Assembly (NCBI RefSeq): GCF_900113005.1 | Contig: NZ_FONW01000006.1 | Coordinates: forward strand, 1-64,000 | DNA length: 64,000 nt | Source of the DNA: Sunxiuqinia elliptica | GTDB lineage: Bacteria > Bacteroidota > Bacteroidia > Bacteroidales > Prolixibacteraceae | Reading direction: 5' to 3' | In this document: positions 2,587-62,405 of the stretch, piece by piece | How the letters are laid out: each line of letters starts with the position of its first letter | How positions within the stretch are numbered: the stretch's first letter is position 1 | The notes under the pieces: model-generated | Database searches by the model: none | What the model was told of the DNA's origin: nothing | The model's input: only the letters and a program-made list of their open reading frames with translations | Program-made: the position numbers and the translations under genes

Positions 2587-3978
2587 TTAGTCAACCCCCC
2601 AAACATATAGTTCAGATAAATCCATCTGTGCTCCACTGGTTGGCCCGATATTATTGTTGGCATAGGAAAATGCTTCCGTTATAATAAATCGAAGATATCT
2701 CCCATGTGACGGAGTAACTTCAAAAACATGAGAACGAGCTCCATTGTTAGTAATTTGCCAATCGCCAATTTTTTCCCAAGTGTTCAGATCATCACTAATT
2801 TGGAAATATCCCTTTTTTTGGTTGCCGCGATAAATGTTATCAGGCTTACGTAGTCCAATTTTAACAATATTCTTTGAGGCTTTCATATCTATGACAAAGT
2901 AATATGGCATAGGCTTTGGCACATCCCATTTAGATCCCCAGAAGGTGGAGATATCATTGTCTAGTAATTTTTCTGGAGTTCGATTAAGGTCAATATACTT
3001 GGTTTCTTCGCATATACATGAATTCCATTCAATAATTTCCCAAGTTGTTCTAGATAATTCGTAAGCAGAACAGCTAATATGCAATAAAATAGTCGCTCCT
3101 TGTTGGGCAATTGTATGTTCCGAAACTTCTTTAATTCGTAGAGGAAGGATGTATTCTCCGAATAAATAGAGGTCAGGTTTATTTAACAAATTCTTCCGAA
3201 CGATTGAAATATTCAAATCTTTAGATTTTTGTCCAACATTCAGAAAGTGTTCATTGGAAAAAAGTTGATATGAATTGTCCGGTAGGAGCAGATAATTGGT
3301 GTTATTTGCATCATTATATTTTGTTAATTCTTGAGTATCAACTTCAATCTTGAAATTCAGTTTTGCTTGAGGTTTATAGTTGGTTTGAATAGATACAGGA
3401 ACATTAAAACTTTCTGGGTCGTTAAGCGAGAGAGAAATAGGAGTCTCAGATAATCCTGGCTCAGTGAATTCAATATAAGGTTCAGATAAGACAGGAATAA
3501 GCAGTACATTTGAATTATCAGCTAAAAGTTCAATATCATTAACCGCTTCAATACGGATAGGTAATGCAAAACTCTTCTTTTGCGATGAGAGTTTCTTAAT
3601 TGCGGTCGTGTTAAATAGAATGCAGAATTTGTCTGATGCTTCTTTTTCGGCAATATTTAACTCTTTATTTTCAAAAGTAAAGCAGTTAGCTGGTAAAATC
3701 TCATATTGAGAGTTTTCTGCTGTATTGTATGATTCTAGCAGATCATTTGCTATTGTAAGCTTTAATTTGGCTTCTTTTCTGCCAATTCCAGATTTATTGA
3801 CAATAAGCTCATACTTATATGTTCCAAAATTAAATAGTTGAGCGTTTTGCACCCCTGATTTTATTAGGTAGACTTTATCTTCTGTAATGTCATTCATTCG
3901 GTTATCTTCGCATGAAAAAATTAAGGGTATGAATGAAAATATAAACAGGAGTTTTATTGTTATTTTTTTCGTATTCAT
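2587..3978 (-). CDS. Surface lipoprotein with DUF1735 and discoidin (F5/8 type C) domains
   Basis: A 463-residue predicted lipoprotein: hydrophobic N-terminus with a lipobox ending at Cys23 (IFSC). Two repeated beta-sandwich segments of DUF1735 type (about residues 30-150 and 165-295) carry the family hallmark of a YN..N..NY..LP..Y pattern (for example YNDANNTNYLLLPDNSY). The C-terminal ~150 residues resemble a coagulation factor 5/8 C domain (LLDNDISTFWGSKW, then FVIDM near 360 and RYLRFIIT near 430), a carbohydrate-binding fold. It is the last gene of the SusC-SusD operon, 21 bases after SusD, in the place of SusE/F-like surface glycan-binding proteins. A paralogue occupies the same slot in the second locus (48204-49586). 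The ligand is unknown. Confidence 0.85.
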   Translation of the reverse strand: MNTKKITIKLLFIFSFIPLIFSCEDNRMNDITEDKVYLIKSGVQNAQLFNFGTYKYELIVNKSGIGRKEAKLKLTIANDLLESYNTAENSQYEILPANCFTFENKELNIAEKEASDKFCILFNTTAIKKLSSQKKSFALPIRIEAVNDIELLADNSNVLLIPVLSEPYIEFTEPGLSETPISLSLNDPESFNVPVSIQTNYKPQAKLNFKIEVDTQELTKYNDANNTNYLLLPDNSYQLFSNEHFLNVGQKSKDLNISIVRKNLLNKPDLYLFGEYILPLRIKEVSEHTIAQQGATILLHISCSAYELSRTTWEIIEWNSCICEETKYIDLNRTPEKLLDNDISTFWGSKWDVPKPMPYYFVIDMKASKNIVKIGLRKPDNIYRGNQKKGYFQISDDLNTWEKIGDWQITNNGARSHVFEVTPSHGRYLRFIITEAFSYANNNIGPTSGAQMDLSELYVWGVD

Positions 3979-3999
3979 TGTTTTTATTTTTTTTGAGGG

Positions 4000-5829
4000 C
4001 TACCAACCATAGTTTTGAGTAATATTTTTCATTTCGTCTAATTGAGACTGATGAATAGGAAATAAATAGTGTTTTGACTGAAATACCAAAGGCAAACAGA
4101 TTTGGTCAGTACGTTCCCATGAGTCTTCATAATTGGTTGCAAGCAGGTTTCTTCCGTAGCGTGGTCCATTGCTTTCTTTATCTGCAATCATCCAAGTACG
4201 AATATCATAATAACGAAGATTCTCGAAAGCCATTTCTACCATTCGTTCCTTACGAATGAGTTCACGAAGAAGACTCTGGTTTCCTATTACTTCAGGGTAA
4301 GCTTCTTCAATATCATTAAGGCCACTTCTATTGCGAATTTTATTGATGTATTCTAAAGCGCTGGCTTCATCCCGAGTTGGTTTTTCATTGCATGCTTCAG
4401 CGTAATTAAGATATACTTCCGCCAGCCTAATATATGGCCAACTAAAGCTTCCCCATTTATTGTTATCCATATCGTTTCTTGGGTCAGTCATTCTTCTCCA
4501 CAGATATCCGACCTTACAGAAGTCGCCAGATTTATTGTTATAGGTAGAAGTACCTCCCGTATGAAAAGTAACCAACTTTTTCCCTTGGAAAGTATTGATC
4601 CAATACATTCCATTAAAAAGAACTGATGCGTAAAATCGAGCATCACGTCCAACGCAACTCTTGTGCGCTTTTATTGTAAACTTGTCGATAGGATGCACAT
4701 ATGAATCGATGAATCCTTCATCAGAGTATCCAGATAATGGGTCGATTATAGGTGCCCCATCAGTTTGATAATTGGTTATAGGGAAACGCCCTGACTTTTC
4801 CATCGGATAAGTGTCAACCAATTTCATAGATGGAGCATAACCTCCGTATCCATGTTTAACGACCAAAGGGGGATTACAACGTACATTCCATAACCAACCA
4901 TTAGATTCCCATTTAGCAAAAATCAATTCATCATTCCATTTCTCGAAGTAAATTCCCATGTAAGATTTTATCCCCTTTTGAAAAGGATCGGTCTCTTCAC
5001 TGTTTTCATAAAGCTTATATATACCTAAATCGATAACGTCTTTGGCGCCCTGTGCTGCTTTTGTCCATTTAGAAGGATCAGGAACTTGAGGAAACAGAAA
5101 GTCTCCATAATGGTTTTTCATCCCCCTGTACAGGTCACAGCCATTGAATAGGGGGCGGGCTGCATACAATAGCATGCGTGCTCGAGTTGCTAAAGCAGCT
5201 CCTTTTGTGGCTCGACCATACCACGCCGGATCTTGAATTTTAAGAGGTAAGTCTTTAGCTGCTTTTTCCAATTCGCTATTGATAAACTCGAAGCAAAAAT
5301 CTAAAGAGTGTCTGTCTATTTCTTCATTTTTTATATTCAGATCAGGAATTTTATCCCCCCAAATATAGACTGGTCCATATTGTTGAACCATCATAAAATA
5401 AAGGTATGCTCGAATGAAACGAGCTTCTGCTTTAGCATGCTGACGTTCTTCTTGTGATAATTCCAGACAGTTGTCAACATTTTCGATAAAAATGGAAGCT
5501 TGATGAATTCCTTTATAATTATGAGACCACGTATGATATAAGTTGGTTGAAGGATTCCATGAGCCATCATTGTGTCCGAGATAAGGTGCCCACGCAATCC
5601 ATGAATAGTATGCTTCATCTGATCGGGGAGTAGTTGATTCTTTGGCTTCGTAATCGTTTGGTAGAAAAGAATATACTTGAGCAAGATAGCGTTCAGTTGT
5701 TGCACGCTTATCAAATGCTTCTTCTATAGTCATTTGATCGTTTAAATCAGGGGTGAGATATTCTTCACAAGAAAAGAACATCATCATCATAACAGGAATA
5801 ACTATGTGTAAGGATGTTTTTTTTAACAT
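4000..5829 (-). CDS. RagB/SusD family nutrient-binding outer-membrane lipoprotein
   Basis: A 609-residue SusD homologue. The lipobox ends at Cys21 (FFSCEEY). Family landmarks are visible: an N-terminal TPR-like region with AEARFIRAYLYFMMVQQYGPVY, the mid-protein WGSFSWPYIRLAEVYLNYAEA helix pair (broken here into its parts: RLAEVYLNYAEA), and the C-terminal RKERMVEMAFENLRYYDIRT stretch followed by YLFPIHQSQLDEMKN ending in NYGW. SusD caps the SusC channel and holds the glycan or peptide-glycan on the cell surface. It starts 11 bases after SusC ends, so translation is probably coupled. The best match in the window is the SusD of the second locus. Substrate cannot be read from the sequence. Confidence 0.95.
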   Translation of the reverse strand: MLKKTSLHIVIPVMMMMFFSCEEYLTPDLNDQMTIEEAFDKRATTERYLAQVYSFLPNDYEAKESTTPRSDEAYYSWIAWAPYLGHNDGSWNPSTNLYHTWSHNYKGIHQASIFIENVDNCLELSQEERQHAKAEARFIRAYLYFMMVQQYGPVYIWGDKIPDLNIKNEEIDRHSLDFCFEFINSELEKAAKDLPLKIQDPAWYGRATKGAALATRARMLLYAARPLFNGCDLYRGMKNHYGDFLFPQVPDPSKWTKAAQGAKDVIDLGIYKLYENSEETDPFQKGIKSYMGIYFEKWNDELIFAKWESNGWLWNVRCNPPLVVKHGYGGYAPSMKLVDTYPMEKSGRFPITNYQTDGAPIIDPLSGYSDEGFIDSYVHPIDKFTIKAHKSCVGRDARFYASVLFNGMYWINTFQGKKLVTFHTGGTSTYNNKSGDFCKVGYLWRRMTDPRNDMDNNKWGSFSWPYIRLAEVYLNYAEACNEKPTRDEASALEYINKIRNRSGLNDIEEAYPEVIGNQSLLRELIRKERMVEMAFENLRYYDIRTWMIADKESNGPRYGRNLLATNYEDSWERTDQICLPLVFQSKHYLFPIHQSQLDEMKNITQNYGW

Positions 5830-5840
5830 TGTTTCAGTTG

Positions 5841-8800
5841 TTAAAAGTTTAGATTAACTCCAAGAGTAAAAGTTTTCATATTGGGATATACTGCACCTTG
5901 CTGATTTGTGATTTCAGGATCCCAAAGTTTAAAGCTGCTTAATGTGAGTAAGTTGACTCCTTGAGTGAAAAATCGGATAGACGAAAATCCTACTTTATTA
6001 GAAATTGACGTATGGAGGGTGTAGCCCAATTCTGCATTCTTCAATCTAAGAAAGCTATTGTCAATTTGTTTAGCGGTAGATCTTTGTCTATTGTTCTCGT
6101 TTGTGTAAATAGACATTCTTGGATATTTGGCTTTGGGATTTGGAACTTCTACTTTCCATCTATTTTTTGCAACATCGGCATACACTCCAGATAGGAATAA
6201 ATTGGAATTTTCAAATCCGTTAATTGCAGTTCCTCCAGTAAACATAGTTACATTCTCTACTCCTTGGCAAAATAGAGATAGGTCGATACCTTTATAAGCC
6301 AAGCTAATACCAAATCCATAATTAATTTCGGGAATACTGGTTCTTCCTATTGGAACTATATCTGAAGCGTTAACTACCATATCACCATTGATATCACGGT
6401 ATTTCAAGTCCCCTGGACGAACGGGGCCGTATTGCTGAACTGGAGAATTCTGAATGTCTTCTTCTGACTCAAAATAACCTATTGCGACTAATCCAAATTG
6501 TTGGTATAGGGGTTTCCCAACCTGACTTTTGTAAGCCATTATTGGGGTTGGTTTGTCATCGTATAATTTTTTATTTCTGTTGAATGTGAAGTTGGCTCTG
6601 GCTGAGATAAATAAGTCTCCAATTTGTTCTCTGTAATCCATTGATGCATCAATTCCTTTGTTTTCCATCTTTCCAAGATTAACATAAGGGGCAACATTAA
6701 TTCCGACTATGGATGGAACGCTTTCTCGTTCAATGAAAATACCGTCACGTAATTCATGAAAGTAATCAGCTTGTATATTGAGCTTATTGAATAGCCCAAC
6801 TTCAATTCCAATGTTAAATTTCTTTGCTTTTTCCCATGAGACATGGGGGTTTCCCGGATACCCTGTCGCAAGCCCTCTAATCCAGGATTGTCCCATTTCT
6901 CCAAAGGTGAAAGAGTTGTAGTCTTGCATTTCTGGATTGAAAGCGAATCGGCGACCTCCTCCAATTTTGTCGTTACCTATAGTGCCGTAAGATCCTTTTA
7001 ATTTTAATGTGTTAATGATTGGATTAAGAGGAAGAAAAAAGTTTTCACTACTAAGCAAATACCCCAGTGCTATTGAGGGGAAAAAGCCATACTGTTTCCC
7101 TGGTGAGAAATTTTCGGAGCCATTGTAGCCAAAATTTCCTTCTGCAAAATACTTATCGCGGAAAGCATAGGTAATACGGCCAGCAATTCCCATATTTCTG
7201 TATGGAAGAGAGTATACATATTTGGTTGGAAAATTATTTACATGTTCGCGTTGGTTGAATAAAAATAAACCCCCAACTCTATGATTTCCATTAAATACTC
7301 GATTATAGGTAAGAGATGCTTCTAAGTAGGTTGTACGTGTACCTGCATTTCCTCTTTCAAAAGTCATATAATTTCCGCCATCGGTAGTTCTTTTTAAAAT
7401 GAGGTTACCTTCAGTATCTCTGTCGATAGCGTAATAAGTTGTGGGATTCTTTTTACGGATGATACTGGCAGAATTGTATGCATCCCATGAAAATTTAATA
7501 TTCGCTTTTAATCCAGGGGTTATTAATTCAGAGAAATCTTGAGTGATTCCGATTAAAGATTGGGCATTATTGTTGAAAATCTGGACATATCCTGTATTAT
7601 TAAGCAGGTTGTATGGGTTTTGTCCAATATCTGGTTTAGCTAAGCTTCCATCTGAATATATTTTGGGTATAGCTATAGGAACAGTTTGAAAAGAATACAA
7701 CCAAAGGCTTGTTGTATTTGGCCTATTTTTGATCTCGTATTGATTGGATAGGTTTAAGTTCAGGATAGTATTTCGGTGTAGTTTTATGTCAATATTCGAG
7801 CGAAACGAATATTTGGTCCAATTTAGCGAAGGATTGTATTCTTCACTTTCAATTGCATCGAAAATACCATTTTCACGATATACTGATCCAGACACATAAA
7901 AATTAGCAATTTTTCCTCCGCCAGAAACACTCGCATTTAAACGATTACTAGTTGTAACATTCTTATAAATTTCATTGAGCCAATCAATATTTGGATATAG
8001 GTCAGGATCTGATCCATTAAGATATTTTTGCTTGGCTTCCTCGGAATAGAAATTCCGTCCTTTGTTAGCCTCTCTGTGCACTTCATTGTATAAATCGATG
8101 AACTGTTCTGCATTTGCCATTTCTGGCATGCGAGTTGGAGAGAGTAGTCCAGTTTCTGCTTTTATATTGATTAAAGGCTTGCCTGTTTTTCCTTTTCGAG
8201 TAGTAACAAGTACAACTCCATTTGCTCCTCTAACACCGTAGACAGCTGTTGCTGTTGCATCTTTTAAAATCGAAAATGTTTCAATGTCTTCAACATCTAC
8301 TAAGTCCAGCGAACGTTCAATCCCATCGACTAGTACAAGTGGACGGTTATTGGCCCCGAAAGTACTTACTCCACGAATCCAGAAATCAGCTCCAGATCCA
8401 GGTTCTCCAGAACGTTGAACTGCAACAATTCCCGCCAATTGTCCGGCAAGACTTGTACTTAGTTTTCCCACAGGCATCCTTAAGTCTGGGACTTTTACAG
8501 ACGTGATTGCTCCAATAACACTTTCTTTGCGTTGTTTCCCATATGCAACAACAACAACATCTTTCAATTCTTGAGAATCTTCCTTTAAAGTAATGTTAAC
8601 ATCTTGTTGTCCCGTGTACTCAAGAGTTTCGCTGGTCATCCCGATAAACGAGAAAATTAATTTATTTCCTGGAGATACATTGATTTGAAAGGATCCATCA
8701 ATATCTGTCATTACTCCACGGGTGGTGCCTGATATGGTAATTGCTGCTCCTGGTAGAGGTAATCCTTTTTCGTCTGTAATTTTACCTTTTAGTATTTTCT

Positions 8801-24140: not shown

Positions 24141-24538
24141 TCGTTTTCACACGTCGAATTATGAGAGGAGCATTTACTGCAAAGTCCGCTAAGCACGCAG
24201 TTTACACTGGCTACTTCATATCCTTCGGGAAGGGAAAAATGAACAGGTTCTTTCAGGCATTCAATCGAGTCGCAGCTGGTACATCGAAAATGAAAATGAG
24301 GTTCTTGTGGAGCATCACCCTCACATTTCATGCATACGGCAAAATATTGTTTTCCGTCCTCTGCAACAATCTTGTGTACGGTTCCGTCATGGCAAAATTG
24401 ATTCAGCACACGATAGATTGTCGCTCGGTTAATGGGGATGTCAATGGCTTTCTCTATGGCTTCGTGACTCAGCGCCTTGCCTGATTGCGCCAGTAGCTTT
24501 AGAACAGCCTCTTTGGTTGGTGTGTTTCTCCTTTTCAT
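24137..24538 (-). CDS. Fur family metal/peroxide-responsive repressor
   Basis: A 133-residue Fur-superfamily protein: N-terminal winged helix (TPTKEAVLKLLAQSGKALSH, INRATIYRVLNQF) and C-terminal dimerisation domain with metal sites HFHFRCTSC (Cys pair near 86/89) and GLCSKC (near 119/122); another pair, CMKC, sits near 69-72. Both structural-zinc CxxC pairs are present. Whether it acts as Fur, Zur or PerR cannot be decided from these residues. It is divergent from a thioredoxin-reductase-like gene, and a perfect 14-base palindrome in the gap is a candidate operator for both. The linked redox gene favours a PerR-like or Zur-like role, as inference. Confidence 0.9.
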   Translation of the reverse strand: MKRRNTPTKEAVLKLLAQSGKALSHEAIEKAIDIPINRATIYRVLNQFCHDGTVHKIVAEDGKQYFAVCMKCEGDAPQEPHFHFRCTSCDSIECLKEPVHFSLPEGYEVASVNCVLSGLCSKCSSHNSTCENE

Positions 24539-24601
24539 CTGGTAAAATTAAGCTGTGTTTTGAATGTTTCGTTAAAAAAACAATCAATTTATTAATGCGA
24601 C

Positions 24602-24615
24602 ATTATTGCAATAAT
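24602..24615. promoter_or_regulatory. Perfect palindrome, candidate Fur-family operator
   Basis: ATTATTGCAATAAT is a perfect 14-base palindrome 64 bases upstream of the Fur-family start and about 130 bases upstream of the flavin oxidoreductase start. AT-rich dyads of this kind are typical Fur/PerR-type boxes. Control of both divergent genes is inferred from position. Confidence 0.5.
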
Positions 24616-24746
24616 AAAGCTAACGATTAACTTTACCAAAAAAAAACATCAACAATAGACGCATTTTGGAATCAATGTCAGCGTCTTTCTTGCCTGATCA
24701 CCCATTTTATTTAGCCGTTTACTTTATTCTTTTAAACAGTGATAAA

Positions 24747-41171: not shown

Positions 41172-41276
41172 CTAATCAACAACGATCTTTAGTTCTTTAC
41201 AGTCTTCTTTCCCTATGGCTGATAAAATATAAACTCCTGAATTGAGCCCTTTCACTCTAATTTTGTGATGAAAAAA
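41172..41276 (-). pseudogene. Possible 3' remnant of a gene with a T9SS C-terminal sorting tail
   Basis: The minus-strand frame ending at 41172 finishes with IRVKGLNSGVYILSAIGKE then CKELKIVVD. The GLxxGVYIL...KKIVV pattern is that of type A sorting domains which send proteins through the type IX secretion system. The frame extends back to a TTG at 41498, but the upstream part looks like no known domain and lacks a signal peptide. I read it as a scrap of a lost secreted protein; a chance resemblance is possible because only about 35 residues are involved. Confidence 0.4.
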
Positions 41277-41577
41277 GGCTTTGCTGTCTCCTGACTTAAA
41301 ACATTGCCAGAGATGGTAATCGATATTTTTAACCTCCTTTTTTTTGTACGATATCTTTGCGCATAGTAAAAAATCATTGATTAACTTAAGATTCGTCGTT
41401 GTTGTATGGAATAAAAAACAGCCGTTTTTTTCTTTGTAATTCTTTCCAATATTCGATACATACTGAGGGCTTTGGCTGCTTTGATTTACGGCGAGCAAAA
41501 AAATAGTTGAAAATTTTCTTTAAAAAGTGAGTAGGTTTTTCTTGAATGGGAGTATTAAAGGAAAACAAAAGCAAGGA

Positions 41578-42660
41578 ATGACCAACAACAATAGAAATAC
41601 TCGGGCTTTTTTTGAAAAAGTGACTGACTTTGTGAAAAAGCAAGAAGTTATTACGGGGCCCGACGAGAAACAAAATTTGTGGACCAAGATAGAACGGGAG
41701 ATTGTATCTAGGGAACGTGTCCGAAAGTTGCGTATTTATGCTTCTGTAGCGACAGCTGCAGTTCTGTTAGGATTTGCAATCTGGATTGAAAGTGCAGGTA
41801 TCCTGGAACAAAGCAAAAGCTTGAATCAGGTTGTTTCCGAGATTTCAGTTCCCAAGCAGGCTTCTGATATTATCTTGATGGTATCGGATAGCGATGAGAT
41901 CCGAATTGAAAAGGATACTGCAATTGTCAACTTTGCTGATAATGGAAAGATAACCGTAAACAATGAGGCTATAGAGAGGAAGCCCACCAAAAGTTCAGCA
42001 AGAGAAAAAGAAGAAAAGTATAATCAGATTATTGTCCCCGGAGGAAAGAGAACGATGTTGACCTTGTCAGATAGCACCAAAATATGGGTTAATGCAGGGA
42101 CACGTATCATATTCCCAGAGGAGTTTAAAGGAACTGAGCGGAGGATATTTGTCGATGGCGAGGCTTACCTGGAGGTTACCGAAAATAAAAGAAAACCATT
42201 TGTTGTTGAAACGCCTGCTCTCTTTGAGATTGAGGTGTTAGGGACCGCTTTTAATGTTTGTACCTACGATGAACTGGAGTTTGCAACAGTTGTGTTAGCA
42301 AGAGGAAAAGTGGAGGTCGCAGGAAGTGGAAGACAGAAGAAAATTATGGCTCCAGACCAATTATTGAAAATTGATGCTGAAGGTGTCTTGGAGGAGCCGA
42401 TTCCTGTAAATGCCGAAGACTATATTAGCTGGACCAAAGGACTAATGGTTATAAAATCTAAGCCTTTTTCAGAAGTTTTGAAAAGGCTACAAATCTATTT
42501 CGGCGTTCCGCTAAATATCGATCCAAGTCTGAATGAATCTATCTCAGGTCAATTGGCTCTTAAAGACGATTTTGAAGAGGTCCTCTTGGGATTGAAGAAC
42601 ATTGTGTCCTTTAGTTATCACGAAGAAGAGGAGGGCGGGTACCGAATTGAGAAAGATTGA
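41578..42660 (+). CDS. FecR family anti-sigma factor (locus 2)
   Basis: A 360-residue inner-membrane anti-sigma factor. The frame opens at a GTG at 41527, but MTNNNRNTRAFFEKV from the ATG at 41578 is preferred. Cytoplasmic part 1-42, membrane segment about 44-63 (ASVATAAVLLGFAIWI), FecR domain with IIVPGGKRTMLTLSDSTKIW, VNAGTRIIFP and FEIEVLGTAFNVCTY, then a C-terminal DUF4974 domain (VIKSKPFSEVLKRLQIYFGV). Unlike locus 1 there is no sigma gene directly upstream; the only other ECF sigma gene is at 53525-54199, at the far end and on the other strand. Confidence 0.94.
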   Translation: MTNNNRNTRAFFEKVTDFVKKQEVITGPDEKQNLWTKIEREIVSRERVRKLRIYASVATAAVLLGFAIWIESAGILEQSKSLNQVVSEISVPKQASDIILMVSDSDEIRIEKDTAIVNFADNGKITVNNEAIERKPTKSSAREKEEKYNQIIVPGGKRTMLTLSDSTKIWVNAGTRIIFPEEFKGTERRIFVDGEAYLEVTENKRKPFVVETPALFEIEVLGTAFNVCTYDELEFATVVLARGKVEVAGSGRQKKIMAPDQLLKIDAEGVLEEPIPVNAEDYISWTKGLMVIKSKPFSEVLKRLQIYFGVPLNIDPSLNESISGQLALKDDFEEVLLGLKNIVSFSYHEEEEGGYRIEKD

Positions 42661-46292: not shown

Positions 46293-46304
46293 AATTGAAT
46301 AGAC

Positions 46305-48200
46305 ATGAAGATATTTTCAAATATAAAACTTGAATTTGTTTTATCATTAGTTGTCGTGCTGTTGATGACTTCTTGTGAAGACTTTTTGGATAAGCAAGAG
46401 GACGAGGCACTTACCTTTGATGAAATATGGGAAACACGGGGGAATACTGAAGCCTATTGGTTAAATGCAATGTCGTTTATTCCTTATGAAGCAAAAAAGG
46501 CAATGGGCGATGCAGATCCTTGGTTAGGAGCTTCTGATGAAGCGACAGTTACTTACAACCGGGCCTTCCGGAAAATCAATTTTGGTTCGTGGAATGCATC
46601 TGATGTACCATATTATAAGATGGCCGATTTTTACAAAGGAATACGGGAGTGTAACATCTTTATGCAGAATGTTGATCGTTGTTCTGATCCTATTGTAACG
46701 AAGGAAGAATTGGCAAGCTGGAAAGTTCAGGCACGTTTTGCTCGCGCCTATTATTATTTTGCCATGATGCGTATTTATGGCCCTGTGTTTTTGGTCGGCG
46801 ATGAGTTGTTGGATTTTACAGCAACAACGGAAGAACTTTATCGTCCTCGAAATACTTGGGATGAGTGTGTTGATTATGTGGTTAGCGAGCTCGAGGCTTG
46901 TATGGCCGATAATGCAATGCCTCAAGTTTGGCGTAATGATAATGAAAAAGGCTTGGGTACAAAGGACGTTTGTCAAGCGGTAATCTCTCGTCTAAAGTTG
47001 TATTCGGCAAGAGATTTGTTTAATGGCAATACGCTATACAGCAGTGTTAAAAACCCTGTAGCCCCTGATTTCCCTGAACTTTCAGGAGTTGATTTATTTC
47101 CTCAAACATACGATGTAAATAAGTGGGTTGAAGCTGCAGAGGCAGCCTATAAGCTGATAAATGAAGGTTCATATGAATTATACCGGGCAGGAAATGGTAA
47201 TCCATACGAGGACTATTATGGAGTTACCCAAGAGCTTTGGAATTCTGAACTTATCTGGACAACTGGTTATATAGGCCGATATTCTTATGCTGTAACAACT
47301 GTACCTACCAGTGTTGCTGGAACTGCCTATGGTGGTGTTGGGCCAACACAGCAACAAGTAGATGCTTATGCCATGGGCAACGGGCGGTATCCGGTAACTG
47401 GTTATGAAGGGGATGGAGCTCCTGTTGTTGACGAAGAATCAGGATATAGCGATGATGAGTTTGAAATGGTTTCATGGGATTACCCTTCATGGGCTGGATT
47501 TGATTCTTATTCAGTTACAACTCCGAATATGTATAAAGACAGGGAGCCAAGATTTTATGTATCTGTATTTTATGGTGGTGGCTACTGGCATCATGGCAAT
47601 AGTAAAACCTTAACCTCTTTTGCGTCAGGTGCTAATGGCAATAAATCGCATGACCATCCTAAATCTGGCTACCTTATTAATAAGTATTACGATCACACTT
47701 CAAACTCTGCAAATGGCAAATGGGGAAATATGACTTATCCTACTTTTCGGTTGGGTGAAATTTACCTGAACTTTATTGAAGCCGTGTTAGAGGGGAAGAA
47801 AAGAGGGGCATCATTGCCGGCAGGCTATGAAAGCAAAGCCATGGAAGTATGGGCTGATTTGAGAGATCGTGCTGGATTAGATCCAATTACTGAAATTTAT
47901 CCAGATGCAGATATTGATAAACTAATTGAGTTATATCGGCAAGAAAGACGTATTGAGTTAGCTTTCGAAAACCATCGCTATTTTGATACACGTACTTGGA
48001 TGATTGCAGAGGAAGTTGATGGAGGCCCAATGTATGGAATGAATATCACTGTTCAGGGAAGTGGTTCTTCAACTCCAGAGGAGTACTGGGAGCGGACTGT
48101 TTTTGAAACAAGGGTATTTCGGAGTAATCACTACCTCTATCCTTTCTCACAACGTGAGTTGGATCGAAATAAATTATTGACCCAGAACTATGGTTGGTAA
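46305..48200 (+). CDS. RagB/SusD family nutrient-binding lipoprotein (locus 2)
   Basis: A 631-residue SusD homologue with lipobox Cys24 (LLMTSCEDFLDK). Landmarks: KVQARFARAYYYFAMMRIYG, RLGEIYLNFIEAVL, RQERRIELAFENHRYFDTRT and the C-terminal HYLYPFSQRELDRNKLLTQN ending NYGW. It covers the SusC mouth on the cell surface. It begins 12 bases after SusC and is followed after 3 bases by the DUF1735/discoidin gene. Confidence 0.95.
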   Translation: MKIFSNIKLEFVLSLVVVLLMTSCEDFLDKQEDEALTFDEIWETRGNTEAYWLNAMSFIPYEAKKAMGDADPWLGASDEATVTYNRAFRKINFGSWNASDVPYYKMADFYKGIRECNIFMQNVDRCSDPIVTKEELASWKVQARFARAYYYFAMMRIYGPVFLVGDELLDFTATTEELYRPRNTWDECVDYVVSELEACMADNAMPQVWRNDNEKGLGTKDVCQAVISRLKLYSARDLFNGNTLYSSVKNPVAPDFPELSGVDLFPQTYDVNKWVEAAEAAYKLINEGSYELYRAGNGNPYEDYYGVTQELWNSELIWTTGYIGRYSYAVTTVPTSVAGTAYGGVGPTQQQVDAYAMGNGRYPVTGYEGDGAPVVDEESGYSDDEFEMVSWDYPSWAGFDSYSVTTPNMYKDREPRFYVSVFYGGGYWHHGNSKTLTSFASGANGNKSHDHPKSGYLINKYYDHTSNSANGKWGNMTYPTFRLGEIYLNFIEAVLEGKKRGASLPAGYESKAMEVWADLRDRAGLDPITEIYPDADIDKLIELYRQERRIELAFENHRYFDTRTWMIAEEVDGGPMYGMNITVQGSGSSTPEEYWERTVFETRVFRSNHYLYPFSQRELDRNKLLTQNYGW

Positions 48201-48203
48201 ACA

Positions 48204-49586
48204 ATGAAGTTTAATCGAAATAAAACGAGATATTTTATGAGAGGCAATAATATATATCTGTCAATGCTTTTGGGGTTATTGGTTTTGATAACTTCATGTG
48301 ATGACAATAAAGATGAGTTTTTAAGTGATTTTGATACGATCTTTTATTTTCTCAATAGTGGAGAACAAAATCTTACACTTTATAAAACTGGAGAAAACAC
48401 TGATTATGCTGTCACAATTAATAAGGCAGGAAGTGATCTAGGTTCGGCAGGAACGGTTTCTGTTGCTGTTTTAGATGACAGTCAGATGGCTTTATATAAT
48501 CAGGAAAATGGAACGGACTACACTGCCTTGCCCGAAACGGCTTTTGAGTTTTTATCTCAGACTTCAATGAATTTTGGAAGCGGAGAACAATATAAAGTTT
48601 TTGAGGTGCAATTTAAGACTGACATGATTGATGGTTTAGGCAATGATTTAAATTACGTGCTTCCTTTGAGTTTAAGCTCAACAGATTCAGTTAATGCTGA
48701 AAAGCAAATTGTAATCATCAATCCTGAAATAGAAATCCCGTCAGTTTATTTTACGAAAACAGGCTATGTTGCAAACTTACTGAGCGATAAAGGTGAAGAG
48801 CAGGTGGCTTTATCGTTACCTTTAACGATGTCAGCAACCAACAAATGGGAATTTAACTGTACTGTTGAAATTGATGAAGCATTGATTGACACGTATAACC
48901 AAGAAAATAATGTCAGCTATACCTTGTTGCCAGCTGAGTCATACACTTTAGCTGGAGATGGAACTGTGGTGTTTACAGCGGAGGATCAAACGGTGAACCT
49001 TGACGTTAACGTTGACCGGACAAAACTAAGCTATGGAAACTACATTCTTCCACTTCGCTTAACGGAATGTTCGAAAGAATCATTTGTCATTGACCAGGAT
49101 AAAAACACGTGCCTGTTCGGTATATCCTATACCCCTGATGCTTCTGATTTAGTTGCGATTGATTTGACAGCAGAGATGCTCTCTTCAAATGCAGTTGAAC
49201 CATCGGAGGGATCATTGGCGAACTTGCTGGATGGCGATGTGAATACTTATTTCCACTCTGCATGGAGTGTGTATGTGCCTGATGCTCATTATTTGCAAGT
49301 TGATTTAACTAACTCGTTGTCTGCATTTAGTTTTGACTTTACAGGACGAGCAACTGGAGGCGCAGGTAATCCTAAGGTAATTGATATTTATGCAAGTACG
49401 GATGGAACAACATTTGAGAAAGTTTCAACGATTATGCAGGAAAATCTACCTACCGGAGCTGCAGGAGCTTATGCATCTCCCGTTATTGTGATGCCAGAAT
49501 CTAAATACATTCGTTTTGTTGTTCCTCAGAACATGACTGGAGGAAGCTACTTCGTATTTAGTGAATTTAGTATGAAAGGTTTATAA
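48204..49586 (+). CDS. Surface lipoprotein with DUF1735 and discoidin domains (locus 2)
   Basis: A 460-residue predicted lipoprotein (lipobox Cys32, VLITSCDD; the start could also be the ATG 33 bases inside). Two DUF1735-type segments (about 40-165 and 175-300) each with the YNQENGTDYTALPETAF-like signature (second copy YNQENNVSYTLLPAESY), then a C-terminal F5/8 type C domain (about 315-460, LLDGDVNTYFHSAWSVYVPD and KYIRFVVPQN). It is the paralogue of the 2587-3978 protein and holds the same place after SusD. It is followed by a hairpin, so the metallopeptidase gene further down may be expressed at a lower level. Confidence 0.87.
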   Translation: MKFNRNKTRYFMRGNNIYLSMLLGLLVLITSCDDNKDEFLSDFDTIFYFLNSGEQNLTLYKTGENTDYAVTINKAGSDLGSAGTVSVAVLDDSQMALYNQENGTDYTALPETAFEFLSQTSMNFGSGEQYKVFEVQFKTDMIDGLGNDLNYVLPLSLSSTDSVNAEKQIVIINPEIEIPSVYFTKTGYVANLLSDKGEEQVALSLPLTMSATNKWEFNCTVEIDEALIDTYNQENNVSYTLLPAESYTLAGDGTVVFTAEDQTVNLDVNVDRTKLSYGNYILPLRLTECSKESFVIDQDKNTCLFGISYTPDASDLVAIDLTAEMLSSNAVEPSEGSLANLLDGDVNTYFHSAWSVYVPDAHYLQVDLTNSLSAFSFDFTGRATGGAGNPKVIDIYASTDGTTFEKVSTIMQENLPTGAAGAYASPVIVMPESKYIRFVVPQNMTGGSYFVFSEFSMKGL

Positions 49587-58773: not shown

Positions 58774-60183
58774 ATGATGAATCAAATCCTAAAAAACCTA
58801 AGCGTTCTCATCGTTGCATTATTTTTTGGAAGTTGCACAATGAGTAACGGACAACATTCGGAGCAGCAAATGAAGAAAGCTGCTGAAAACTACCAAAATT
58901 ATTGTGCCGGCTGTCACGGAAATAATCTGGAAAAATTTGAGCAAAAAGACTGGATGTACGGTGATGACAACTCCAGTATCGTGCAAAGTATTACCCATGG
59001 GCGCGAGGAGATGGGCATGCCTGGCTTTGAAGTGACATTCTCGAAAGAGGAAGTTGAAGCTTTGGCAGAGTACGTTCGTAAGGGGGTGCCCGAAGATAAA
59101 GAAACGCTTCAACCGGCGCTTTCTGCAAACCAGCTGGTTGAGTCTGAGGTTCAGAAATTTATTATTGATACCGTTGTATCAGGGTTGGAGGTACCTTGGG
59201 GCTTGGAGTTTTTACCTAATGGTGACCTGTTGATTGCAGAGCGTTCAGCTAAGCTCTTCCGTTTTACCAATAATGAGTTGCAGGAAATTTCAGGCTTGCC
59301 AAACATATTGGTGAAAGGGCAGGGAGGCTTGCTCGATCTGGAGCTTCATCCTGACTATGAAAGTAACGGATGGATTTACATGGCCTATTCAGGTTATGCT
59401 GATGGGAGTCCTGATGAGGCTTGCACCAACATTATGCGGGCGCGATTACAAGGAAATTCCCTGGTTGATCAGGAGCTGATTTTTGATGGTTATCCTGATT
59501 CGAACAAGGGACACCATTGGGGGTGTAAACTGGAGTTTGATCGCGAGGGATACTTGTTTTTTGGGATTGGCGATCGCGGAAGTCGTGATGTTAATCCACA
59601 AAGTTTGACAAATACCAACGGGAAAATCCATCGGATTCATGATGATGGCTCCATTCCGGAGGACAATCCATTTGTGAGTACCCCGGATGCGGTTAAAAGT
59701 ATTTACTCTTATGGACACCGTAATCCGCAGGGAACAGCCATGCATCCGGAAACTGGAGAGATTTGGGAAACGGAACATGGGCCTCGAGGTGGAGATGAAT
59801 TGAACCTGATTAAGCCTGGAGTAAATTACGGTTGGCCAGTGATCTCGTATGGAATTAACTACGATGGAACCAGCTTTACAGATCTTACAGAGAAGGAAGG
59901 CATGGAGCAGCCACTTACCTATTGGGATCCTTCAATTGCTCCATGTGGTACAACCTTTGTAAAAGGTGACCGATATAAAAACTGGAAGAATAATATTTTA
60001 ATTGGCTCGTTGCGTTTTATGTATCTCGAACGGGTGGTATTGGATGGTTATCAAGTTGTGAATCATGAAAAGCTGCTGGAAGGTATCGGACGTGTTCGCA
60101 ATGTGGAGATGAGCCCTGATGGTTATGTCTATGTGGCGGTTGAAAACCCCGGAAAAATTCTACGGCTGGTTCCGGTCGAATAG
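58774..60183 (+). CDS. Cytochrome c-fused PQQ-dependent sugar dehydrogenase lipoprotein
   Basis: A 469-residue envelope protein. Lipobox Cys21 (FFGSCTMSNG), an N-terminal cytochrome c domain with CAGCH at 44-48 and a Met-ligand segment MGMPGFEV, then a six-bladed propeller of the soluble glucose/sorbosone dehydrogenase family (about 130-469): VPWGLEFLPNGDLLIAERS, GGLLDLELHPDYESNGW, HHWGCKLEFDREGYLFFGIG, YSYGHRNPQGTAMHPETGE and HGPRGGDELNLIKPGVNYGW. The enzyme would oxidise aldoses to lactones and pass electrons to the haem. The lactonases next to it could open the products. PQQ dependence is a family inference; no pqq genes are in the window. Confidence 0.9.
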   Translation: MMNQILKNLSVLIVALFFGSCTMSNGQHSEQQMKKAAENYQNYCAGCHGNNLEKFEQKDWMYGDDNSSIVQSITHGREEMGMPGFEVTFSKEEVEALAEYVRKGVPEDKETLQPALSANQLVESEVQKFIIDTVVSGLEVPWGLEFLPNGDLLIAERSAKLFRFTNNELQEISGLPNILVKGQGGLLDLELHPDYESNGWIYMAYSGYADGSPDEACTNIMRARLQGNSLVDQELIFDGYPDSNKGHHWGCKLEFDREGYLFFGIGDRGSRDVNPQSLTNTNGKIHRIHDDGSIPEDNPFVSTPDAVKSIYSYGHRNPQGTAMHPETGEIWETEHGPRGGDELNLIKPGVNYGWPVISYGINYDGTSFTDLTEKEGMEQPLTYWDPSIAPCGTTFVKGDRYKNWKNNILIGSLRFMYLERVVLDGYQVVNHEKLLEGIGRVRNVEMSPDGYVYVAVENPGKILRLVPVE

Positions 60184-60218
60184 CAAAAATTCACCTTCAT
60201 ATAAAAGAATTAAACTAG

Positions 60219-60246
60219 AAAAACTCCCCATAACGGGGAGTTTTTT
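60219..60246. terminator. Terminator between the dehydrogenase gene and amtB
   Basis: Arms AAAACTCCCC and GGGGAGTTTT with a 5-base loop and T runs on both strands. On the minus strand it starts 22 bases after the second, distal stop codon of amtB, which supports 60268 as the original gene end. Confidence 0.92.
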
Positions 60247-60267: not shown

Positions 60268-60489
60268 TTAAAGCAGTTTGTCGCTCTTGTATTGAAAATC
60301 GTATGATTCATTGTGCTGACTAATATCCAGTCCGATTTTTTCAGATTGAGCAGATACGCGCAACAGAACAATCAGGTCGGTAATTTTATAGAGTAGGTAA
60401 GATCCACCAAACGTAAAAACTCCCACAATTAATAGCGCTAACAGATGGTATAAGAAAGTGGTGAACTCTCCGTAAATGAGTCCAACCTC
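60268..60489 (-). pseudogene. Detached C-terminal part of amtB beyond an in-frame TAA
   Basis: After the TAA at 60492-60490 the same frame stays open for 73 codons to a TAA at 60270-60268. The translation begins EVGLIYGEFTTFLYHLLALL, contains one strong membrane span (LLALLIVGVFTFGGSYLLY) and ends with KITDLIVLLRVSAQSEKIGL, the classic last helix and cytoplasmic tail of AmtB (LRVS..E..GLDxSxH). The segment is therefore the true end of the transporter, separated from it by a single stop codon. It has no ATG near its start. Confidence 0.88.
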
Positions 60490-61608
60490 TTAGGCAAATA
60501 CAGCAGTAAGTAACATGCCAACAATACCGCCCATACCGTGTGCCGGGAAAACATCCAATGTATCATCCAAGCGTGTTTTTGAGCGTAATTCAATGGCATA
60601 GTTGCTGATGATTGAGGCGGCAACACCGATGAAAATACTGGCTCCCACGTTAACAAAGCCTGCAGCAGGGGTAATGGCAACCAAGCCCACAACTAGGCCG
60701 ATGGAAGCTCCCATTCCGCTTGGCTTTTTCCCCTTGGCCATGTCGTAAAACAAATAGGCAAGCATCGCTGCCGCCGAAGCCGTGTTTGTGTTCATCAAGG
60801 CTAAGGCCGCAGTTGAATTGGCGCCTAAAGCTGAGCCAGCATTGAATCCAAACCAGCCAAACCAGAGCATGCCCGCTCCAAGCAATACAAACGGGATGTT
60901 AGCTGGACGTACTTCTGTGCCAAAATCTTTGCGCTTGCCCAGAAAGATAGCTCCGGCAAGTGCTGCAAAACCTGCCGACATGTGTACGACGGTTCCTCCG
61001 GCAAAGTCTAGAACGCCCCAGTTGCGTAGGAATCCGTTGGGATGCCAAGTCCAGTGCGCTAGTGGTGAATAAATAAACAGGGTGAAAAGAACCATAAATA
61101 GCAGGTAAGAGCGGAAGCGTACCCGTCCGGCAAAAGATCCGGTGATAAGTGCCGGGGTGATGATGGCAAATTTAAGCTGGAACATGGCAAAGAGAGCGAA
61201 AGGAAAAGTTGGTGCCAGGTCGGGGTGAGTAGCGCCAGTTACTCCATTAAACATGAAATAGGTAAATGGATTGCCAACCAGCCCAAATCCATCGGGACCA
61301 ATACTTTCTCCAAATGCCAGGCTAAAACCACAGATAACCCATATGACACTGACAGCCCCCATAGCTATAAAGCTTTGCAACATGGTTGATAAAATGTTTT
61401 TAGAATGGATCATGCCGCCATAGAAGAAGGCTAGCCCCGGAGTCATGAGCAGAACGAGCGCGGTGGCTGTAAGCATCCAGGCTACGTCACCAGAATGGAT
61501 GGCAGGATCATCTAGTCCTCCAAATCCACTTGGGTAAAATACGCCAATAATGGAAAACAAGATGAGTAGGGATAAAATGATGATCCAACTTAGGTTTGAT
61601 TTTTTCAT
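60490..61608 (-). CDS. amtB: Ammonium transporter, truncated by an in-frame stop
   Basis: A 372-residue Amt/MEP protein: membrane spans through most of its length, the first pore His in FDFAGGTVVHMSAG (as LDFAGGTVVHMSAGFAALAG) and the second in DVFPAHGMGGIVGML, with the Phe/Trp gate region AFFYGGMIHSKN. It conducts ammonium/ammonia. It stops at TAA (60490-60492) right after LLTAVFA, before the last membrane helix and tail, which are still present in frame downstream (60268-60489). Full length would be about 446 codons. One base change from AAA, CAA or GAA explains the stop; a sequencing error or read-through are alternatives. Divergent from an Lrp-type regulator. No glnB/glnK gene is seen. 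Confidence 0.9.
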   Translation of the reverse strand: MKKSNLSWIIILSLLILFSIIGVFYPSGFGGLDDPAIHSGDVAWMLTATALVLLMTPGLAFFYGGMIHSKNILSTMLQSFIAMGAVSVIWVICGFSLAFGESIGPDGFGLVGNPFTYFMFNGVTGATHPDLAPTFPFALFAMFQLKFAIITPALITGSFAGRVRFRSYLLFMVLFTLFIYSPLAHWTWHPNGFLRNWGVLDFAGGTVVHMSAGFAALAGAIFLGKRKDFGTEVRPANIPFVLLGAGMLWFGWFGFNAGSALGANSTAALALMNTNTASAAAMLAYLFYDMAKGKKPSGMGASIGLVVGLVAITPAAGFVNVGASIFIGVAASIISNYAIELRSKTRLDDTLDVFPAHGMGGIVGMLLTAVFA

Positions 61609-61937
61609 TTCGTTCGTTTTTATCTTTTATTTTATCTCTTTTGTTTTTATTTTGATGGATTATGTGTCTTTGTGATCTGTATGTGATTTTAAAAGTATCA
61701 TTTTGTTTTATAATTTTGTATTTTTGAGTAAAAATGTTAATCAATCATAAAAAATTGTAACATATGTCTTATGTTTTATAAAATGTAAAAGCTATAGTTA
61801 ATTGTCTGCGAGTAGTTTGGATATTGAAAACTCAAAGCGCGGAGTGTTGCATAATGAGTGAATGAGCATTGGATCATTAGCTATCTGCTAAAAATTACTT
61901 ACTTTTGCTCGCATATATTTTTATAAAAGGACAGAAT
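61609..61937. other. Divergent intergenic region between amtB and the Lrp-type gene
   Basis: A 329-base, very AT-rich gap without a gene. A rightward TACTTTTG (61900-61907) is a good -7 element for the Lrp-type gene, 30 bases before its ATG; this also argues against the TTG at 61905 as start. I found no clear promoter for amtB on the minus strand. Confidence 0.5.
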
Positions 61938-62405
61938 ATGACACTACGGAACAATCTAGATAATATTGACTTACACATTTTGGAGATTATCACTCAAAAT
62001 GCGCGAATTCCTTTCAAAGATGTTGCTGCTGAAGTTGGCGTTTCAAGAGCTGCGGTTCATCAGCGGGTTAACCGAATGATTGAAATGAAAGTAATCACCG
62101 GATCGGGGTATCACATTGATCCTCGAAAGGTAGATTACAAAACATGCACTTATGTGGGCGTTTTTCTTGAGAAGGGAGGCTTTTACGAAGATGTTGCAGA
62201 GGAATTAAAGGAGATTCCAGAGATTGTCGAATGCCATTATACCACGGGGCAATATGCGATTTTTGTAAAAGTGTATGCGCGTGACAATGAGCACTTAAAA
62301 GAAGTTTTAAGTGAGAAAGTGCAAAAGATCTCTGGAATATCAAGTACCGAGACGTTTATTTCATTAGAAGAAACATTTAAACGGCAAGTGCCCATCAGGG
62401 ATTAA
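61938..62405 (+). CDS. Lrp/AsnC family transcriptional regulator
   Basis: A 155-residue regulator (start at the ATG at 61938, MTLRNNLDNIDLHILEII). N-terminal HTH with DVAAEVGVSRAAVHQRVNRM, then the RAM/AsnC_trans_reg effector domain (about 75-150, VEEL-type helix AEELKEIPEIVECHYTTGQY). The frame reaches a TTG at 61905, which lies in the promoter and is rejected. Lrp proteins bind amino acids; next to and divergent from amtB it may respond to nitrogen or amino-acid state. The last 11 bases overlap the convergent rlmB end. Confidence 0.93.
   Translation: MTLRNNLDNIDLHILEIITQNARIPFKDVAAEVGVSRAAVHQRVNRMIEMKVITGSGYHIDPRKVDYKTCTYVGVFLEKGGFYEDVAEELKEIPEIVECHYTTGQYAIFVKVYARDNEHLKEVLSEKVQKISGISSTETFISLEETFKRQVPIRD

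Follow-up and report, generated by a model that had tools for sequence, protein, structure and literature searches.

We analyzed a 64,000-nucleotide stretch of the Sunxiuqinia elliptica genome (contig NZ_FONW01000006.1, positions 1 to 64,000; here called the window) in which a gene for an Amt-family ammonium transporter is interrupted by an in-frame stop codon. The gene lies on the minus strand. From an ATG at 61608 it runs for 372 codons (the body, 60493 to 61608), meets a TAA at 60490 to 60492, and then stays open in the same frame for 73 sense codons (the tail), which end at the family's usual end with a second TAA at 60268 to 60270, so that tail and final stop occupy 60268 to 60489. An earlier note on this DNA had described an amtB frame divided in just this way, and the sequence confirms it. 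Body and tail are consecutive parts of the same profiles. The body matches the Pfam profile Ammonium_transp (PF00909) over positions 1 to 326 of 399 (E value of 5.1e-97, 325.5 bits) and the tail matches positions 338 to 397 (E value of 1.5e-9, 37.6 bits), both above the curated cutoff of 23.2 bits; in TIGR00836, the body covers positions 1 to 331 and the tail 346 to 404 of 406.

The tail contains one continuous hydrophobic stretch, at about residues 4 to 36, and an LRVS...GLDISQH segment. We take the hydrophobic stretch to be helix 11 of the known Amt fold. Because these two features come together with the profile match, the 73 codons are not a chance open frame, and the earlier claim that the last helix and the classic tail lie beyond the stop is borne out. 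The body alone has neither the last membrane helix nor the cytoplasmic tail. Since the TAA comes before the last helix, no single open frame holds all the helices and the tail, and judged by its sequence this copy appears to be a gene relic, not a complete PF00909 member. Beyond the end of the gene, at about 60217 to 60246, direct reading of the sequence shows an inverted repeat (ACTCCCC/GGGGAGT) with runs of A and T on either side, which is likely to be the bidirectional terminator named in the earlier note, although a consensus terminator scan did not report it. An Rfam search returned only one match, far below the gathering score.

We searched 140 genomes of the family, including that of S. 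elliptica itself, for orthologues. Seventy-five other full-length orthologues with at least 74% identity were found, and all 75 are open through the site, with open frames of 439 to 483 amino acids and a matched body free of stops. A further full-length match (G019, 59% identity) has an open frame of 448, and two further matches above 70% identity (G095 and G083) are partial. A codon-by-codon alignment took in 36 of the 75 orthologues, and all 36 have a sense codon in the column of the TAA, encoding Q, E, K, N, H, R, or D. The stop thus sits at a variable position and is private to its lineage, by codon in the 36 aligned orthologues and by open-frame length in all 75, as is expected of a recent nonsense pseudogene. 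The earlier note had left room for two separate genes at this place in relatives; none of those examined has them. We also scanned named genome contigs. In the best 80 of at least 594 stretches, a sense codon directly follows the matched stretch in every case, with an open tail of 64 to 105 codons; the column after the matched stretch is not exactly homologous in all 80, and the two panels overlap (L033 is the same as G009).

Three apparent stops among the matches listed were rejected. G106 and G114, each scored with one TAA, are uninterrupted over 413 and 410 amino acids, the stop lying upstream of the start, and the single TAG of G002 is the normal end of its gene. Separately, one of the 80 stretches, from a Flavobacterium metagenome-assembled genome (L094, 3001 to 4124), holds a related amt with a matched length not divisible by three and a body stop in one frame, the result of either a frameshift or an assembly error. 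Amts from a record titled Elusimicrobia bacterium (L040, 68% identity) and from Corallococcus llansteffanensis (L049, 69% identity) are closer than many of the listed Bacteroidota genes, which suggests gene transfer or misbinning.

A tail that looks constrained is what leaky or programmed read-through of UAA would leave, with a little full-length Amt carrying the regulatory tail made beside the truncated form. Global recoding of TAA was ruled out. The tail itself ends in TAA, none of 46 tRNA places has a UUA anticodon (150 of 358 first-look candidates were scored, with anticodons read by ARAGORN), and a stop interrupts none of 103 domain matches from two large families in the genome (52 TonB-barrel and 51 ABC, with some proteins contributing more than one match, and with an ABC match at positions 2 to 50 lying in a 95-amino-acid open frame that may be a fragment or chance). 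Neither a UAA-reading tRNA nor TAA inside many genes, the marks of stop codon reassignment or ochre suppression, was seen in these sets. The marks of programmed read-through are a stop conserved in related genomes together with a coding extension and a stimulating downstream structure. No relative examined shares the stop, and the RNA downstream of it has a fold z-score of −0.30, with 64 of 200 shuffles folding at least as well. Pyrrolysine is inserted at TAG and selenocysteine at TGA, neither of them at TAA. The discussion of Belinky et al. 2021 (PMC7918605), in the portion of that paper available to us, names TAG and TGA only.

The option of read-through or recoding offered in the earlier note is therefore not supported on any of these counts. 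Nothing beyond the undecayed tail supports it positively, and a recent origin of the stop accounts for the intact tail by itself. We keep read-through as a very improbable rival because PMC7918605, in its accessible text, argues that in-frame stops accompanied by a dN/dS below 1 are common across bacteria, that in many cases they do not mark pseudogenes, and that translation may read through them, for the most part only briefly. We find it barely credible that the UAA is leaky in this species and sets a low dose of tail-bearing, full-length Amt beside a truncated form lacking the tail, the second transporter thereby passing through a transient regulatory state. As a separate observation, the tRNA search revealed similar Thr(tgt)-Tyr-Gly(tcc) clusters on two contigs (G000:C13:253939-254316 and G000:C24:27530-27937, G000 being the S. 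elliptica genome), one of them with an extra Thr(ggt).

We compared the divergence of tail and body between this gene and its orthologues in four congeners. Synonymous sites of the body are near saturation in congener pairs other than one close pair (pS of 0.66 to 0.77), and we therefore used dN and counts of conserved columns, not dN/dS ratios. Tail dN between S. elliptica and the four congeners is 0.077 to 0.128, and that among the other congeners is 0.090 to 0.130; the corresponding body values are 0.076 to 0.086 and 0.059 to 0.068. The ranges among congeners omit the very close pair G004/G005 (0.009 in the tail). At body columns invariant in 13 other orthologues, S. elliptica has 3 private changes in 244, as does G002, and the other eight compared have 0 or 1. 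The earlier statement that the tail shows no decay holds for divergence, which is no greater than that of intact tails, but of the 33 tail columns that do not vary among the 13 comparison orthologues, 1 has changed (E439Q), though this column varies in the wider panel. A second tail change, P415L, falls where 31 of the 36 aligned orthologues have Pro and the remaining 5 also lack it.

How long could the tail have gone without constraint? We simulated its neutral evolution, without indels, and counted outcomes with no new stop and at most 1 of the 33 conserved columns changed. The probability of such an outcome was 0.29 at 0.03 substitutions per site, 0.09 at 0.05, and 0.014 at 0.08, and under this model an unconstrained period would be bounded at roughly 0.05 to 0.08 substitutions per site. 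Because synonymous sites are nearly saturated, any neutral period would cover only a small part of the lineage. The simulation bounds the age of the stop; it does not separate a young mutation from an error.

An error would mean that the gene of the organism is intact and that the TAA arose in sequencing or assembly, or that it represents a minority base or a culture variant. A tail indistinguishable from those of intact genes and a stop seen in one genome only both fit this explanation. We nevertheless consider it unlikely. The site has no homopolymer, a substitution error in a nonrepetitive stretch of a 240,828-base contig from a 26-contig genome should be rare a priori, and a stop was found in none of the other 103 domain matches. 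An assembly error is thus less likely than a recent nonsense mutation.

We also asked what the divided gene could still make. Since the Amt profile can be followed in the body as far as position 326 of 399 and the tail has rare start codons (ATT at codon 5 and CTG at codon 16), one might imagine a working variant transporter formed by the 372-residue truncated protein, or by two pieces translated separately. Against this, the body has lost the last helix, and the tail offers no ATG in frame; GTG appears there for the first time at codon 22, within the hydrophobic stretch, and TTG at codon 43. No full-length relative examined is split. A working variant of either kind therefore seems highly doubtful.

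The genome (5,094,324 bases, 26 contigs, completeness 99.99%, contamination 2.44%) has a second Amt, a possibility that the earlier note had proposed to check. This second gene is intact, encodes 405 amino acids, and follows a PII gene, a pairing described as usual in the accessible text of PMC3831643. No PII gene was found among the open reading frames beside the split amt. Among six other genomes of the genus, G001 (99% complete) and G003 (71% complete) showed no orthologue of the split gene, their matches being to the other Amt type only, at 36 to 37% identity.

An Lrp/AsnC-family regulator gene (61905 to 62405, plus strand) adjoins the split amt and is next to amt in all five stretches from relatives, four of which belong to the genus and one to a different genus. 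A cytochrome c/glucose-sorbosone dehydrogenase gene (58774 to 60183, plus strand) converges on amt and lies beside it in three of the five. All five stretches keep the order of amt, the Lrp-family gene, and the two genes beyond it, presumably rlmB-like and ABC-F-like, which argues that the locus was inherited and is not a new insertion. In the upstream region, a four-sequence alignment was too diverged to use and the search pattern missed two relatives.

We consider it probable that the stop arose very recently, by nonsense mutation of an amt paralogue that the cell can do without. In a second, vertically inherited Amt gene, a codon at a variable position ahead of the last membrane helix would very recently have mutated to a stop, and the likely product of the gene would be a 372-residue protein that, lacking this helix and the cytoplasmic tail, is expected to be nonfunctional. 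Ammonium transport would be kept by the other Amt, beside the PII gene, and its intactness makes loss of the split copy plausibly tolerable. The tail would look intact because there has been too little time for decay since the mutation. This option, one of those raised in the earlier note, is supported by a stop observed in no other genome examined, the undecayed tail, the conserved neighborhood, the intact paralogue, and the finding of no orthologue in G001. Given that the gene otherwise shows little decay and that an intact transporter gene is present elsewhere, the ordinary, very recent loss of a spare gene is the most likely course of events, and we infer that the mutation is real, abolishes function, and is tolerated thanks to the paralogue.

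Several points weigh against a recent nonsense mutation. The undecayed tail is equally compatible with a base-call or assembly error, and the loss of function of the split amt is putative, an expectation from the missing helix and tail. At the site itself, the four orthologues from the same genus have CAG, CAG, CAG, and GAA; CAG is two substitutions away from TAA, and GAA is one. The slightly higher body dN may reflect a longer branch, or else constraint that had eased mildly before the stop arose.

Within the window, a script picked out five other same-frame neighbors. Two are SusD/BT_3987-like (F5/8 type C) gene pairs, at 2590 to 5853 on the minus strand and 46299 to 49583 on the plus strand, in which the second gene shares the frame of the first and starts a short way past its stop; both are normal adjacent genes and were rejected as split genes. 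A third place was also rejected, being a GFA-family gene followed by an open frame without a match. Neither piece at 41175 to 41735 matched Pfam, and the flagged places also include 24193 to 24627.

A search of the literature collection available to us found no paper combining Prolixibacteraceae and an ammonium transporter. The split gene resembles the Amt/Mep/Rh transporters (PF00909, TIGR00836), in that residues 38 to 439 of 443 of its orthologue L033 align to the solved chains 1xqe and 2b2f, which we take to be E. coli AmtB and Archaeoglobus Amt-1, and this alignment covers the same C-terminal part as the split tail. It differs from them in being interrupted by a stop before the last helix and, unlike the second Amt of its own genome, has no adjoining PII gene that we could see. 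The C-terminal region of E. coli AmtB possibly mediates subunit cooperativity, and the tail has a defined structure in the complex with GlnK, according to the available text of PMC10433425. The cause proposed here is ordinary and of little importance as a mechanism; most likely, the gene is a further example of a recent nonsense allele in a paralogue that can be spared. It shows clearly a stop caught before decay, and an undecayed tail past such a stop is what a young mutation should be expected to leave; it is not evidence of recoding. According to the accessible part of Belinky et al. 2021 (PMC7918605), in-frame stops are found widely in bacterial genes and for the most part do not last long; the split amt is like the genes described there in having a single stop in a gene that otherwise looks to be under purifying selection, and it differs from them in that its stop is present in only one genome.
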